Source of the DNA: Komagataeibacter melaceti | Lineage (GTDB): Bacteria; Pseudomonadota; Alphaproteobacteria; Acetobacterales; Acetobacteraceae | Reading direction: 5' to 3' | DNA length: 36,538 bases | Assembly: GCF_003403295.1 (NCBI RefSeq) | Contig: NZ_QUWV01000056.1 | Span: forward strand, 1 to 36,538 | Shown: piece by piece, positions 140 through 5,501 of the stretch | How positions within the stretch are numbered: the first letter of the stretch is position 1 | How the letters are laid out: the number at the start of each line of letters is the position of its first letter | Translations under genes and position numbers: made by a program | Notes under the pieces: generated by a model | What the model was told of the DNA's origin: nothing | Databases searched by the model: none | Seen by the model: the letters and a program-made list of their open reading frames with translations, nothing else

Positions 140-2344
140 TTAAGTTTTAGCCCAACCAAGTGGCATTGATTTAAAAAAACCAAGTGATTCCTTCGCTTGA
201 TCAATAAGATTCTTGATCTGTTCTGGACTTGTGCTGAAGGCTTCTTTTTCTCTTTCTTTTACCTTTTCTTCATAATTTTTTGCTGTTTTCTGCATAGCGG
301 CGCAGAAGGCAGTTTTTGTCTGATCCCAATAATCATCAGATCCTTGCACAAGGCGACTTTCAACATTTGCATTACGTAATGCTTTCTCAATCGCCTTAGC
401 AAGTCGCCGCTGCCATGAAGGGCCAAAGAGTGAGGCGACAGCAAATCCCGCGAGAACAGCCCCTGCAATTGCAATAGTGATCGGTCCACCAAGAGCAGAG
501 ACTGCGGCCATCACAGTGCCAGAACCACCGACGAGTGAGCTAATACCCAACCACCCTGCAACTTGCGCGACGAGTATATATCCGCCAAGATTGCTGCCAG
601 CCGCTGCAATAGCACTCCAAGCAGCCAGTGCTCCAAGTGCTCCAACGCCACCCAGCGCACCCGCGAATGCCGCCTGAATGTTGAAAAGACGCGAGCCGCT
701 ATCGACGCCAAGAGATAAATTAAGCTCATAGGCAAAGTCCTTCAACATCTCATCAACTTGTTGGGAAAAATCCCTTGAGCATTTCTTTATGGAGACTTCG
801 ACGCGTTCCACAAGTTCTGATTGTACCATCGTAACGGCAAGTTTCTGAGCCTCCTTTTTGTCATTAAATGACCGTTCAATTAGTTTCTCAATTGCATCTA
901 CAGCGGTAACCGTAGAGTAGATCTCCTGAACTTTTATGCGGCCAGTGGCTTTATAAGAGTCAATTAAGCCACTTCCCTTGGTTTCTTTATCGCGGAACGA
1001 TTGTAAACGTGTTGGCAGATCGGCTTTCATACGAGCAGCTTCTGCTCTGACATTTTCAATATCGTCACGGGTTCGCTCTAGAGCGGATATCCATTTCAGA
1101 CTATCGCCTGTCAGTGTTTCCTTTGCAGCCTTAAGGGTCGCTTCGTATTGCGTTTTGGAGCAATCGGGCTGCGTGTCGCAAAGAAAATCGGATAAAGTAT
1201 TCTCAAAATTTACACTGAGAGAGACGTCTTCAACTGAAAAAGTGAAGAAACGCGCCCTAAATTGATCCTCTATATCCATAGAGGTAATTCTATTTACAGA
1301 TGTTTCTCCATTACTGTCAGATGATTTTTCATAGCCGATATAACGGTTATCCAAAGCTGACCGCAATGTTTTGTAAGTTCTTGCTGAGGCTTTCTGAATA
1401 ATAGAGTTCAATTCATTTTTAGGGACCGTGTGTGATTTGGTTGCCACGATGAACAGATTAGAGAATGGCTGTCCTTCTACGGGCGGAACTTCCTTCAAAA
1501 GTCCTGAAATGTTTGCGACATCTTCATTCTTCATGAAGCCGTCTACTGTGGATATGTAGATCATAGCATCAACGATGCGAATGCTATTTTTTGCATTTGC
1601 ATCATCATCTGATCCTGAGTTGCCAAAACCTGGAGTATCAAGAAAATCAGCTACATCGAGAATAGGAGAGTCAACATAAACAAGAACGATACCTGCATTT
1701 TCGGAAATCTTAGACGCTTCAGATCCGTCATGAGTGGTATAGTCCTTCAGGCTTCCATAACTTCCGGCAAGAAGCAAATGCGCCCGACAATAGGCTTCAT
1801 TCGTGGAACGGGAAGGATCAAAGTTCTTGTCCATTACCCATACATTTTCGCTCTGCCAGTTTGGTTTGTCTTTGATGCTACGAATAAGACAAGCAAGGCT
1901 GGTCGTCGGCTGATAAGACGTGGTGAGTGTGTCTTTGCCAAGTAATGAATTAAGTAGTGTAGACTTGCCGGCATCAAAGGCACCATAGACACCAATAATT
2001 GGTTTTCGTCCTAGGCGGACAAGCGCCTCTCTGAGAAGGCCAAGAGAGGCCGAAATGTCGGGATGAGAAATTCTCGGAGCGCCATCAATGAATCCCAAGG
2101 AAAGATGAAGTTCTTGGAGTAGGCCCTCACGGGGAATGGTATTGATATTCAAATGGTGCGAATTGGAAACTTTCCCGCATATTTCGATCCATTTTATGGC
2201 TAGATTAAAAGAAATACTTTCCGGATTTGATTCATAGCGAGAAACCTGCGCCTGTTGAATTCCGAGCTGATTTGCTAGTTCTGTCTGAGATAGACCGGCT
2301 TCCTCGCGAAGACCTTTGAGGTTGCGTAATTTGTCTAATTCCAT
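140..2344 (-). CDS. XRE-type HTH fused to dynamin-like GTPase
   Basis: This 734-residue protein has an XRE/Cro-type helix-turn-helix at about residues 10-55 (LREEAGLSQTELANQLGIQQ). A dynamin-like GTPase follows, with a P-loop at 118-129 (GVYGAFDAGKST) and a G3 motif DTPGFG near 236. A TKSH in the G4 position departs from the usual TKxD. Long helical stretches follow, with two glycine/alanine-rich hydrophobic segments (about 555-640) that look like a membrane hairpin. The start at 2344 is chosen because AGGAG lies just upstream and the HTH begins there; an upstream in-frame ATG at 2467 lacks an RBS. Bacterial dynamin-like proteins remodel membranes, and some take part in phage defence. The HTH suggests self-regulation or DNA contact, which is inferred. 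The gene is clearly AT-richer than the GC-rich plasmid genes and stands alone, suggesting acquisition by transfer. Confidence 0.85.
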   Translation of the reverse strand: MELDKLRNLKGLREEAGLSQTELANQLGIQQAQVSRYESNPESISFNLAIKWIEICGKVSNSHHLNINTIPREGLLQELHLSLGFIDGAPRISHPDISASLGLLREALVRLGRKPIIGVYGAFDAGKSTLLNSLLGKDTLTTSYQPTTSLACLIRSIKDKPNWQSENVWVMDKNFDPSRSTNEAYCRAHLLLAGSYGSLKDYTTHDGSEASKISENAGIVLVYVDSPILDVADFLDTPGFGNSGSDDDANAKNSIRIVDAMIYISTVDGFMKNEDVANISGLLKEVPPVEGQPFSNLFIVATKSHTVPKNELNSIIQKASARTYKTLRSALDNRYIGYEKSSDSNGETSVNRITSMDIEDQFRARFFTFSVEDVSLSVNFENTLSDFLCDTQPDCSKTQYEATLKAAKETLTGDSLKWISALERTRDDIENVRAEAARMKADLPTRLQSFRDKETKGSGLIDSYKATGRIKVQEIYSTVTAVDAIEKLIERSFNDKKEAQKLAVTMVQSELVERVEVSIKKCSRDFSQQVDEMLKDFAYELNLSLGVDSGSRLFNIQAAFAGALGGVGALGALAAWSAIAAAGSNLGGYILVAQVAGWLGISSLVGGSGTVMAAVSALGGPITIAIAGAVLAGFAVASLFGPSWQRRLAKAIEKALRNANVESRLVQGSDDYWDQTKTAFCAAMQKTAKNYEEKVKEREKEAFSTSPEQIKNLIDQAKESLGFFKSMPLGWAKT

Positions 2345-2840
2345 GTTTGTCGCTCCTGTTCCTGCCTGCAAACTAGGCTGAAGGGAGTCTAGATGGATCA
2401 AAAATGGAAGTAAACACTCATTATGCGTTTTTAGCATGTTTATCACTAAAACGAATAAAAATAACATTTACGCATATATGTTATATAAAATATGGGCCGT
2501 GAAAATCTGTCGCGTACCTCGAAGAAAAGGCTTTGGCGGATATGGAAGTCGCAACACTTCATAGGCTGCGCAACAACAGTGGACCAAGCTGAAAGAGGTA
2601 AATCGTCCTATATTAACTATAGTCTGATTGGGACAACTCGAAGCCACGGTGCATCAAGGGCTGCAAGGTGGTTTTTCCGCGAGGGTTCAAGCAGGATAAA
2701 GCGGTCTTTGCTTCGTCTCCCCCAGATAATGTCCCTTATCAGGGATAGAGGAAAAATTTCATCAATCCGAGAAATTTCATGTTGCTATTTTTCCTAAAAA
2801 TCCTCAAATAATCGTTCTGTTGAATTTTGAGGAGAACAAA
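2345..2840. other. intergenic region between divergent genes
   Basis: This stretch separates the HTH-dynamin gene (leftward) from the RAMA-domain gene (rightward). It contains AT-rich sequence at 2455-2490 suitable for promoters and a short imperfect inverted repeat around 2728-2745 (CCCT/AGGG arms). A frame open from 2492 to 2797 has no recognisable protein features and no good RBS. I see no convincing gene here. Confidence 0.5.
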
Positions 2841-3221
2841 ATGCCGACTCTGGATGTGGATTTTGATGTTTGGAAGGCCCTGACCCTGCGCCGGGATTCC
2901 GAAGAGATGACCTATAACGATGTGCTGCGCGATCTTCTGGGGCTGGCTTCTGTCGAGGAAAACCTCGGCACGGGAACAGGTTGGACCTGGAAAGGCGTTA
3001 ACCTGCCCAATGGCACGGAATTGCGGGCGGAATACAAAGGCAAGGAATACACCGCGAAAATCATCCAGGATGCCTGGATGCAGAGCGGGGAAACCAAGAA
3101 CAGCCCCTCTCACGCCGCTTGGTCGATTACCCAAGCCGGGGTCAATGGCTGGACGTTCTGGCAGGTCAAGAAGCCCGACAGCGACCAGTGGGTCTCACTG
3201 AATGCGTTGCGGGTAAAATAA
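2841..3221 (+). CDS. SeqA-N-like plus RAMA-domain protein
   Basis: This is a 126-residue protein. Residues 1-35 (starting MPTLDVDFDVWKALTLRR) resemble the ribbon-helix-helix/oligomerisation N-terminus of SeqA (pattern I-x-V-D-x-x-L/V-Y/W then SASDILRRML-like). From about residue 45 to the end there is a RAMA-like (Restriction Adenine Methylase Associated) domain: G-T-x-L-R-A-x-Y-x-G, then a glycine turn, SPSHAAW and VNGWTFWQV, then a closing W-x-x-L. RAMA domains occur with DNA adenine methylases and are thought to sense DNA or modification. The combination suggests a small DNA-binding, possibly modification-sensing protein. AGGAG at 2829 with suitable spacing supports the ATG at 2841; an in-frame start at 2820 is less likely. 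The membrane-protein frame follows 23 bp later. The target is unknown. Confidence 0.7.
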   Translation: MPTLDVDFDVWKALTLRRDSEEMTYNDVLRDLLGLASVEENLGTGTGWTWKGVNLPNGTELRAEYKGKEYTAKIIQDAWMQSGETKNSPSHAAWSITQAGVNGWTFWQVKKPDSDQWVSLNALRVK

Positions 3222-3454: not shown

Positions 3455-3636
3455 TACAGCGTGCCTTGTTTCTCTCGTCCCGCTTCACGTTGTCTGAACT
3501 GAGAGAGTCGGTTTAGCGAACTGCAAACATCCGGGAAAGCCACGGGCGTGTTCAAGCAGTTTTGGTATTGTGGCTCTGTTGGAGGGAATTTCCAATGCCA
3601 GAGTCATTGCCTATGATCTGGAGATAGAGGTGAAAT

Positions 3637-3716
3637 GTTACACTATATGGGTGTACGTTACCGAAGCCTCCCGCAGGGAGGGTTTGGGAGGGTACACTAT
3701 TACCTATAGTGTAACA
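3637..3716. repeat. inverted repeats, candidate recombinase or operator site
   Basis: TGTTACACTATA at 3637-3648 is repeated in inverted form at 3705-3716. Inside the right half is a tighter palindrome, TACACTAT (3693-3700), 5 bp, ATAGTGTA (3706-3713). This is the size of a tyrosine recombinase core site with two arms around a short crossover region. A further TGTTACACT lies at 3785. The cluster precedes the WGR/integrase gene pair. It may be the binding site of that recombinase or an operator. The rest of 3455-3806 holds no gene that I can support. Confidence 0.4.
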
Positions 3717-3806
3717 GGCCGGGCCTGAAACCGGCCGGCCGGTTCCGCGATCGGGGCAGTTTTCCTGTGCGGGCCAGGTGAGATGTGTTACACTTCTCAG
3801 GATATC

Positions 3807-4103
3807 ATGCCCAAACCCGTCCCGAAGGCCCCTGTCCGGCCGCCTTGCCAGCTGTCGCTGTTTCCCGAAACGGCGGCGCTGGTGCGCGTGGACCCGGCGA
3901 CCAACTGCTGGCGCTTCTATTCCCTGTCGCTGCAGCCCGACCTGTTCGGCGGCATCGTCCTGGTGCGGCAGTGGGGGCGGATCGGGACGGCGGGGCGGTA
4001 GGTCTGCGCATTGTATGATGATGCCGGGCAGGCGTGGGACGCCCTCGCCCGCCAGCTCCGTGTCAAGCGCCGGCGGGGCTATCGCGACAGGGTGGCCGGA
4101 TGA
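3807..4103 (+). pseudogene. WGR-domain protein interrupted by in-frame TAG
   Basis: The frame starting MPKPVPKAPV runs through a typical WGR domain: LSLFPETAALVRVDP, RFYSLSLQPDLFGGIVLVRQWGRIGTAGR. It then meets TAG at 3999-4001. The same frame continues with the expected end of the domain (ALYDDAGQAWDALARQL, then RGYRDRVAG) to TGA at 4101-4103. The full-length product would be about 98 residues. WGR domains bind nucleic acids, and on alphaproteobacterial plasmids such small proteins often precede an integrase. The TAG is either a disabling point mutation or is read through. The integrase ATG overlaps the terminal TGA (ATGA), so the pair was an operon. Confidence 0.7.
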
Positions 4104-4735
4104 GCGCCCCCCGAAACCCGGGACAGCGGGCGGTCCCGGCCGGTGCCCCCGGCGGGATGCAGCTGTTCGACCGCGACGGGAGCCGCAAATACCTCACCGT
4201 TGCCGAGCGGGCGCGCTTCCTGCGCGCAGCCGAGCAGGTGCCGCGCGAGGCCCGCACACTGTGCATGACCCTGGCCTGGTCAGGCTGCCGCCTGTCCGAG
4301 GCCCTCGCTTTGACAGCGGACCGGGTGGACCTCGCCGGCGGCGTACTGGTGTTCGCCACGCTCAAGAAGCGCCAGGACGGGATCTATCGCGCCGTGCCGG
4401 TGCCCCCGTCCCTGCTTGAAGCCCTGGATCTGGTGCATGGCCTCCGTGAGGCCCAGCGCCGGCGCGGCCGTGGCGCAGGCGTCCGGCTGTGGCCCTGGTC
4501 GCGCATGACCGGCTGGCGGGCCGTGCACGCGGTCATGGTCGCCGCCGGCCTGTCCGGCCCGGCCGCGTCCCCCAAAGGCCTGCGCCATGCCTTCGGCGTC
4601 GCCGCCGTCTCCAGCGGTATCCCCCTCAACATGGTGCAGAAATGGCTCGGCCACGCCCAGCTCTCCACCACCGCCATCTATGCCGATGCCGTCGGCGCCG
4701 AAGAACAGGATATCGCCCGGAAAATGTGGGGGTAA
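4100..4735 (+). CDS. small tyrosine recombinase/integrase
   Basis: This 211-residue phage-integrase-type catalytic domain shows the arginine box WSGCRLSEALAL, a lysine in the beta-hairpin (ATLKKRQDG), the second box PKGLRHAFGV and the last box WLGHAQLSTTAIYAD, which holds the nucleophilic tyrosine. The first His of the usual HxLRH is Lys here. The SAM-like core-binding N-terminal domain is largely absent, so the protein is shorter than typical integrases of 300 residues or more. The start at 4100 overlaps the stop of the WGR gene (ATGA). Such plasmid-borne short recombinases may resolve multimers or mobilise cassettes; the inverted repeats at 3637-3716 are a candidate target (inferred). Confidence 0.85.
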   Translation: MSAPRNPGQRAVPAGAPGGMQLFDRDGSRKYLTVAERARFLRAAEQVPREARTLCMTLAWSGCRLSEALALTADRVDLAGGVLVFATLKKRQDGIYRAVPVPPSLLEALDLVHGLREAQRRRGRGAGVRLWPWSRMTGWRAVHAVMVAAGLSGPAASPKGLRHAFGVAAVSSGIPLNMVQKWLGHAQLSTTAIYADAVGAEEQDIARKMWG

Positions 4736-5081: not shown

Positions 5082-5501
5082 GTGCGTCTGGTCGTCGATA
5101 CCAATCTTCTCATCAGTGCCCTGCTTTCTGAAAAATCCCTGCCAGCGCATCTGCTCGGGCTATGGCGGGCAGGACAATTCGATCTGCTGACTTCTACCGA
5201 GCAGCTGGATGAGTTGCGCCGCGTGACCCGGTATCCCAAGATCCGCGCTCGTTTGTCGCCCGTCCTGGCCGGTCGTCTGGTCAATGAAGTCCGGGATCTG
5301 GCTGTTCTCATTGTAGATCTTCCTGCCGTGGTAGTCTCTCCGGATCCGGATGACGATTATCTTTTGGCGATGGCATCCGCTGGAAAAGCCGATTTTCTGT
5401 TAACGGGCGACAAACGCGATATTTTGGCCCTGCGGGTCTATGATGGTGTGAAGATCATCACAGTGCGGGCGTTTCTGGTCATGCAGGGGATCATGCCGTG
5501 A
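5082..5501 (+). CDS. PIN-domain toxin, TIGR00305-type
   Basis: This 139-residue PIN-domain protein is a likely Mg-dependent RNase of a type II TA system. Visible acidic catalytic residues are D in LVVDTNLLISALL, E in LDELRRVTRYPK, D in PDPDDDYLLAMA and the TGDKRDI motif. It starts at a GTG (5082) 3 bp after the antitoxin stop, as expected for translational coupling. The length matches the 'putative toxin-antitoxin toxin component, PIN family'. The paralogue at 11193-11615 has the same architecture. Confidence 0.85.
   Translation: MRLVVDTNLLISALLSEKSLPAHLLGLWRAGQFDLLTSTEQLDELRRVTRYPKIRARLSPVLAGRLVNEVRDLAVLIVDLPAVVVSPDPDDDYLLAMASAGKADFLLTGDKRDILALRVYDGVKIITVRAFLVMQGIMP

Follow-up and report, generated by a model that had tools for sequence, protein, structure and literature searches.

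A rare fusion of an XRE helix-turn-helix to a dynamin-like GTPase on a Komagataeibacter plasmid contig, a candidate self-regulated and defence-associated protein

Results

The XRE–dynamin gene and its protein

The window, that is, the whole 36,538-nucleotide stretch of Komagataeibacter melaceti DNA analysed here, begins at the first base of contig C210, part of a genome of 3.49 Mb, and carries near that end, on the reverse strand, a gene (140–2344) encoding an XRE–dynamin of 734 amino acids; the coding part spans 143–2344, with the ATG at 2342–2344, the stop codon at 140–142, and a Shine-Dalgarno-like AGGAG, found by direct reading, at 2353–2357 of the same strand. Pfam assigns residues 9–57 (2174–2320, reverse strand) to an XRE-type helix-turn-helix (HTH_3, E 8.7e-10, 38.9 bits against a cut-off of 23), whose helices lie at residues 9–16, 20–27, 31–39, and 46–62 of an AlphaFold model, with the recognition helix at about residues 31–39 (QQAQVSRYE), and residues 117–284 (1493–1996, reverse strand) to a dynamin-type GTPase domain (Dynamin_N, E 1.4e-13, 51.7 bits against a cut-off of 27). 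The G1 motif or P-loop, GAFDAGKST (residues 121–129, 1958–1984), and the G3 motif, DTPG within DTPGFG (residues 236–239, 1628–1639), are also read on the reverse strand. Thus, the combination of an N-terminal HTH, a P-loop, and DTPGFG reported in the preliminary description is borne out by Pfam and motif reading, and the protein has the Dynamin_N domain and G1–G3 motifs that define a bacterial dynamin-like GTPase. An HTH arising from a wrongly chosen start was considered and is ruled out, as the HTH follows an ATG with a Shine-Dalgarno sequence and is carried by all 22 aligned relatives, among which the start positions of several were picked by hand and the row of one (L014) starts within its own ORF. 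A longer ORF, from 2467, would take in the candidate operator at 2422–2438 described below.

The AlphaFold model, built on 16 sequences (mean pLDDT 76, pTM 0.57), consists of the HTH helices, the GTPase, and long helices at residues 378–479, 496–538, and 661–704. Between the long helices lies a hydrophobic, paddle-like region (residues 554–643, 416–685, reverse strand), recognized by hydropathy and modelled as low-confidence helices. The membrane hairpin proposed earlier is plausible in view of two stretches above the hydropathy threshold (residues 563–582 and 609–643), both located inside the less confident part of the model (about residues 541–640), where blocks have mean pLDDT values of 32–67. 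Foldseek places the bacterial dynamin-like protein BDLP (2j69, 6.9e-13) first, followed by Cj-DLP1/2, IniA, mitofusin, and SynDLP and, lower, by LeoA (1.2e-6). With query-normalised whole-chain TM-scores of 0.3 or less, the domain arrangement is tentative; with its neck/trunk helices and hydrophobic paddle, the model nevertheless suggests a BDLP-like fold at TM-scores of about 0.3 and, by fold class, a BDLP/mitofusin-like GTPase, for which GTP hydrolysis and membrane remodelling are predicted.

The canonical G4 motif of dynamins is (T/N)KxD, the last residue of which, Asp, reads the base. The window protein has TKSH at this position (residues 302–305, 1430–1441, reverse strand), an atypical G4 that had been singled out for attention; it is, in fact, usual for the family, in which seven of the 22 members have TMAR, eight have xHxH, one has SQAQ, and only five end in Asp. 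The idea of a special G4 as a distinguishing mark was therefore dropped. Since G4 is degenerate throughout the XRE–dynamin family, it was not used to exclude the window protein from the dynamins, and since the base-reading Asp is usually lost, a nucleotide preference cannot be assumed.

Plasmid setting and contig end

The gene is richer in AT than the plasmid core, as had been stated, with a GC content of 44.7% vs 57.7% for 3706–36538. From about position 3631 onwards, the window resembles Acetobacter (46) and Komagataeibacter (27) plasmids among 87 matching records, and this part holds RepA-type and ParA-like genes. The impression that the gene stands alone is not secure, because contig C210 ends 139 bp beyond the stop codon; partner genes may lie beyond that end. 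Bases 1–85 are probably the end of an IS21-family element, judging from their recurrence in 131 plasmid records, often in multiple copies, and from an adjoining IS21-family istA in one of the two records inspected; the second record lists no istA beside its copy, in a gene table that is incomplete. A plasmid cargo slot was also considered, as K. nataicola pKNA02 has matches to bases 1–85 and to 3706–4735 on the two sides of other genes, and was dropped for the left side in view of the widely repeated, IS21-end-like nature of bases 1–85. In pKNA02 (L015:586–6707), other genes, including one for an IetA-like ATPase, precede the same integrase backbone.

The gene next to the XRE–dynamin (ATG at 2841, end at 3221), described previously as SeqA-like/RAMA, shows a RAMA match below the cut-off (33.3 vs 35.2 bits) and, bearing on the SeqA-like label, which stays putative, a weak MatP_C match (E 0.11). 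The C-terminal half of this small protein is RAMA/DUF2924-like, and relatives occur on four plasmid records. A putative PIN-domain toxin gene lies further on, at 5082–5501, between an integrase gene and a ParA-like gene.

Relatives and their distribution

Protein searches returned relatives on 11 plasmid records, one covering only 29%, and on four phage records. Within the same family, four of 299 genomes have an XRE–dynamin, namely the window's own and three others, in keeping with the earlier remark that the fusion is uncommon; an order-level sample overlapping with this one contained relatives in five of 299 genomes, a phylum-level sample in one of 398 (again the window's own), and a sample of another class of the same phylum in none of 369. 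Species genomes provided 15 long matches among 18 loci, two of them repeating family matches; the remaining three (L031–L033) matched just around the P-loop and were left out. A first scan of genome contigs yielded 10 stretches with no true relative among them, and, of four scans of viral contigs, three found no relative and the fourth found one match, 100% identical to the Vibrio copy.

The alignment comprises 22 representatives, outside of which remain plasmid and phage records that overlap with others or are nearly identical to them, L005 and L008 (Lactococcus), and Moraxella H11, with a query coverage of just 29%; loci fetched twice (L012 = L020 and L013 = L026) were counted once. The HTH and the GTPase align in all 22 members, with R13, E38, and G57 of the HTH region invariant in every row, and profile matches at E 0.01 are obtained for Dynamin_N in 22, HTH_3 in 18, and HTH_31 in 17 of them; no NCBIfam model matches any of the members at 1e-10. 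The fusion, hence real and conserved across phyla, is found in Pseudomonadota, in Thermodesulfobacteriota (L027), on Bacillota plasmids, and in P2-like Vibrio phages, and some relatives reside on long species-genome contigs, where they are presumably chromosomal. It is a rare yet recurrent architecture of patchy distribution. In the tree, the window protein has a branch of its own, placed with weak support close to the base of a group of 19 rows.

Several copies have particular arrangements. The Vibrio phage copy (L007:13397–17458) lies between the replication/late-control genes and the portal gene, a position that we take to be a defence hotspot. In L014 (3717–6780), the dynamin is followed by a DUF1232 gene and two more GTPase genes, one with a Dynamin_N match, and in L030 (11898–12959), a shorter dynamin-like paralogue comes after the XRE–dynamin, its match to the window protein (residues 83–394) leaving out the HTH. 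An Acinetobacter plasmid copy (L002:2187–4333) is split in two frames and adjoined by a JukA-like gene, and on a Lactococcus plasmid (L004:1191–8856), two XRE–dynamin copies, the second without most of the hydrophobic region, flank the genes M09A and M09B described below.

Partner genes and defence context

The PADLOC candidate PDC-M09A is found beside the dynamin in seven of the 22 loci (L004, L019, L020, and L022–L025), in all of them downstream of a dynamin that is encoded on the same strand, which in L004 is the second of the two copies. M09B is present in five of these loci (L004, L019 in shortened form, L022, L023, and L025), and L024 has a 46-residue M09B match. The PADLOC models themselves detected M09A in L004 and L012 (= L020) and M09B in L004, the other loci being assigned by tblastn. 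L021 ends just past the dynamin, at the end of its contig. Neither M09A nor M09B has a tblastn match in the window, which accordingly lacks PDC-M09, and a search for M09A in the window's genome, run without a positive control, gave no match. L019–L024 share a conserved ORF of 28–36 amino acids (MYKxxGCxxVxGF...) with a hydrophobic stretch, 128–139 bp upstream of the dynamin ATG, which may represent a missed small component of this M09-type clade. In the class of members with a DQRxVSR recognition helix (see below), a different small gene lies downstream in four of five loci.

Other neighbours are diverse. In L026 and L014, the dynamin is preceded by a DUF4258-like gene and followed by a DUF1232 gene; DUF4258 and JukA genes are upstream of the dynamin in L002; KAP/PifA-like, BrxHI, BrxD, and PglZ (BREX) genes are near that of L013 (= L026); SIR2-HerA is near that of L019; a type I specificity gene precedes the L008 copy; L004 includes a DUF262/HEC-06 gene; and the Vibrio phage has an NsnA-like gene. 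JukA has been described as a sensor working with diverse effectors, transcriptional regulators included (PMC13282480), and its presence beside L002 is therefore suggestive. In one scan of neighbours, seven of ten genes had no defence match (three in L029, two in L018, and one each in L017 and L022); in another, no match was obtained for two of three L007 genes, and only weak ones for the gene that follows L003. As the scanned neighbours were chosen by eye and the defence-gene counts stand without a background set, the defence role put forward in the preliminary description, of which abortive infection would be one possible form, is favoured indirectly, by defence genes or candidates beside some relatives. 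In a study on a Pseudomonas mobile element, the predicted dynamins were reported to be inactive against the phages tested (PMC12595487).

The same distribution bears on a role in plasmid maintenance, in which the HTH would restrain the membrane activity of the protein it belongs to, and the protein would become harmful, as an addiction factor, when the balance is lost. Repression of their own promoter is typical of XRE toxin–antitoxin complexes, the relatives occur on the 11 plasmid and four phage records mentioned above, and several related plasmids have annotated toxin–antitoxin genes. One such XRE complex has been shown to repress its own promoter (PMC12204516). However, a separate antitoxin gene is not seen, other relatives are on the presumably chromosomal contigs, and the partners M09A/B, JukA, and the BREX genes belong to known or candidate defence, which makes an addiction factor unlikely in our judgement.

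Inverted repeats upstream of the genes

Inspection by eye of 220 bp upstream of the 22 genes suggested inverted repeats specific to classes of recognition helix. Because a choice of motif by eye was to be avoided, 1,024 five-base half-sites with 11 gaps, namely 11,264 patterns, were scored exhaustively over 500 bp upstream. In class 1, whose helix is (S/T/Q)QxQ(V/I)(S/L)R in 13 of 15 members, discovery was carried out on ten SQSQVSR-type loci out of 15, leaving out L019, L021, L022, L024, and L025 as relatives of L023. TATGC-N7-GCATA ranked first of the 11,264 patterns, being present with at most one mismatch in six of the ten loci (equalled by one of 200 shuffled sets) and exactly in three (none of 200). 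In the second class, five loci with the helix DQRx(V/I)SR preceded by a seven-residue insertion, AGACA-N4-TGTCT came first, tied with the overlapping form TAGAC-N6-GTCTA; it occurs with at most one mismatch in all five loci (none of 200 shuffled sets), while the exact-match test was not significant (two of five loci, 12 of 200 shuffled sets). When only seven less related loci were used, the first motif was no longer significant (21/100 and 96/100 shuffled sets). L003, whose helix is a different one, contains two copies of the first repeat at a distance of 30 bp, each with a gap of 6 bases, and L004 and L006, kept out of both classes, each have their own inverted repeat upstream, seen by eye and unscored. 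In the polycistronic loci L026 and L029, the sites stand ahead of the leading gene: the DUF4258 gene in L026, at a distance of 84 bp, and the small gene in L029, at 25–85 bp. The site close to the L027 gene has two mismatches to AGACA-N4-TGTCT, and the counted one-mismatch match, at –301, may be due to chance; L020 and L014 have no site with up to two mismatches within 500 bp.

The window contains a candidate operator, CATGC-N7-GCATA, at 2422–2438 (reverse strand), 78–94 bp upstream of the ATG. When the motif was learned without the window, TATGC-N7-GCATA still ranked first (none of 100 shuffled sets), and the 145-bp leader of the window matches it with one mismatch, as do 179 of 20,000 shuffles (p about 0.009). 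Nowhere else does the window match with one mismatch or fewer, though in a scan of all 36.5 kb the site taken singly does not exceed chance (44 of 100 shuffles), and in the window's genome a looser pattern occurs near its control count (24 vs 17). A weak second half-site (TATGC..., 2460–2476, reverse strand), 38 bp from the candidate operator, has three mismatches and is unconvincing alone; a sigma-70-like promoter was not found at the leader. At the sequence level, the coexistence of an XRE HTH with an inverted repeat in its own leader (p about 0.009), together with the class-specific repeats upstream of the relatives, supports autoregulation by the protein's own HTH, as was initially supposed.

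These sites also bear on what the HTH is for. If it were a sensor of invading DNA, binding a phage or plasmid sequence and thereby triggering the GTPase, a DNA-binding head on an effector-like GTPase and the defence neighbours of some relatives would be readily understood; yet the shared targets are found upstream of the protein's own operon, with one match only in the window, and we consider such a sensor rather improbable. With regard to spacing, each of the two classes scores highest at 30 bp (z 3.5 and 4.5) among the 56 offsets from 15 to 70, with primary sites selected as best matches and the signal coming mainly from L003, L022, L023, L028, and L029, of which L022 and L023 are close relatives. 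In L029 (9247–9322), three TAGAC-type repeats exactly 30 bp apart are followed by a small glycine-rich gene and the dynamin. A second site at this distance, as some relatives have, would suit a DNA–membrane tether for partition or replication, in which the HTH holds the operators and the dynamin part anchors or polymerises; TubR/TubZ, acting on DNA, offers a loose parallel. A further one is CrfC, reported to be a dynamin-like protein coupling nascent DNA strands (PMC6104087). Against the tether, the single site of the window lacks a partner at 30 bp, its plasmid already has ParA-like and RepA-type genes, and relatives are also present in a P2-like phage and on species-genome contigs; we regard this role as very improbable.

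Discussion

The results described above are best accommodated, with somewhat better than even confidence, by a bacterial dynamin that is mobile, associated with defence, and a repressor of its own promoter. This reading draws on computed results, namely the conserved domain architecture, the fold class, the rarity and patchiness of the family, the class-specific repeats, and the defence-candidate neighbours in part of the family, from which we infer DNA binding, repression, an anti-phage effect, a trigger, and a switch. In the predicted mechanism, the N-terminal XRE domain would bind the inverted repeat in its own leader, or, in some relatives, the repeat before the first gene of the operon, and expression would be kept low. 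Upon phage infection or membrane damage, the protein may be recruited to the membrane or assemble with GTP; once bound or assembled, it would be less free for DNA, expression would rise, and more dynamin would act on the membrane. A bolder version, which we put forward tentatively and hold to be doubtful, is an immune switch in which the dynamin shuttles from DNA to membrane and back: idle, it would sit on operators, in several relatives phased by 30 bp (about three helical turns), and shut its own gene, until infection draws it into membrane assemblies driven by GTP; the operators would thereby be vacated and the cell flooded with additional dynamin. Conceivably, the array of operators could also serve as a template on which the dynamin assembles along DNA.

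Should the self-repressing dynamin prove correct, the action of a dynamin on membranes would be tied directly to gene control within one polypeptide, the activation of the dynamin in infected cells could be followed with a ready-made reporter, and the defence-associated dynamins would gain a rare, widely scattered branch with swappable partners. No description of the XRE–dynamin fusion was found among the listed open-access papers on dynamins, HTH proteins, phage defence, and autoregulation, nor did a search of the same literature return a paper on PDC-M09.

The XRE–dynamin is worth comparing with known systems. It shares with PDC-M09 the association of M09A with a dynamin in the seven loci listed above, whereas the window is without this system and its genome without an M09A match. 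With BDLP, Cj-DLP1–DLP2, and the mitofusins, its best Foldseek matches, it has in common the GTPase, the long helical bundles, and the hydrophobic region; to our knowledge, no XRE HTH occurs in proteins of these types. The main text of the Cj-DLP paper contains neither 'helix-turn-helix' nor 'DNA-binding', and Cj-DLP1 is described as having a different N-terminal domain, an assembly domain of 119 amino acids. LeoA and LeoBC, presumably dynamin defence of the Eleos type, are likewise modelled by PADLOC, and weak matches at E 0.001 are obtained for LeoBC in all 22 members and for LeoA in 18; the best stretches of the window protein are C-terminal helices (residues 414–701 and 417–718, E about 1e-16 and 1e-14), corresponding to positions 298–563 of 601 and 267–555 of 559 in the models, and a second LeoA stretch, unplaced, also passes. 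The window protein differs in having the HTH, and a paired gene is not seen, with the contig ending 139 bp downstream; in the window's genome, it is the one match at 1e-10, and also at 1e-20 with the family profile, and six other ORFs scanned in the window contained no other dynamin. DynA of Bacillus subtilis comprises two tandem dynamin units and is not known to have an HTH. It is, however, likewise a bacterial dynamin, reported to delay phage lysis and to cluster at the membrane (PMC8844932). Finally, the trifunctional PutA, an enzyme with an N-terminal DNA-binding head, is described as switching from a repressor to a membrane-associated enzyme (PMC5293562); in PutA, the head is a ribbon-helix-helix joined to a proline enzyme, and its likeness to the XRE–dynamin is one of analogy, with no kinship claimed.
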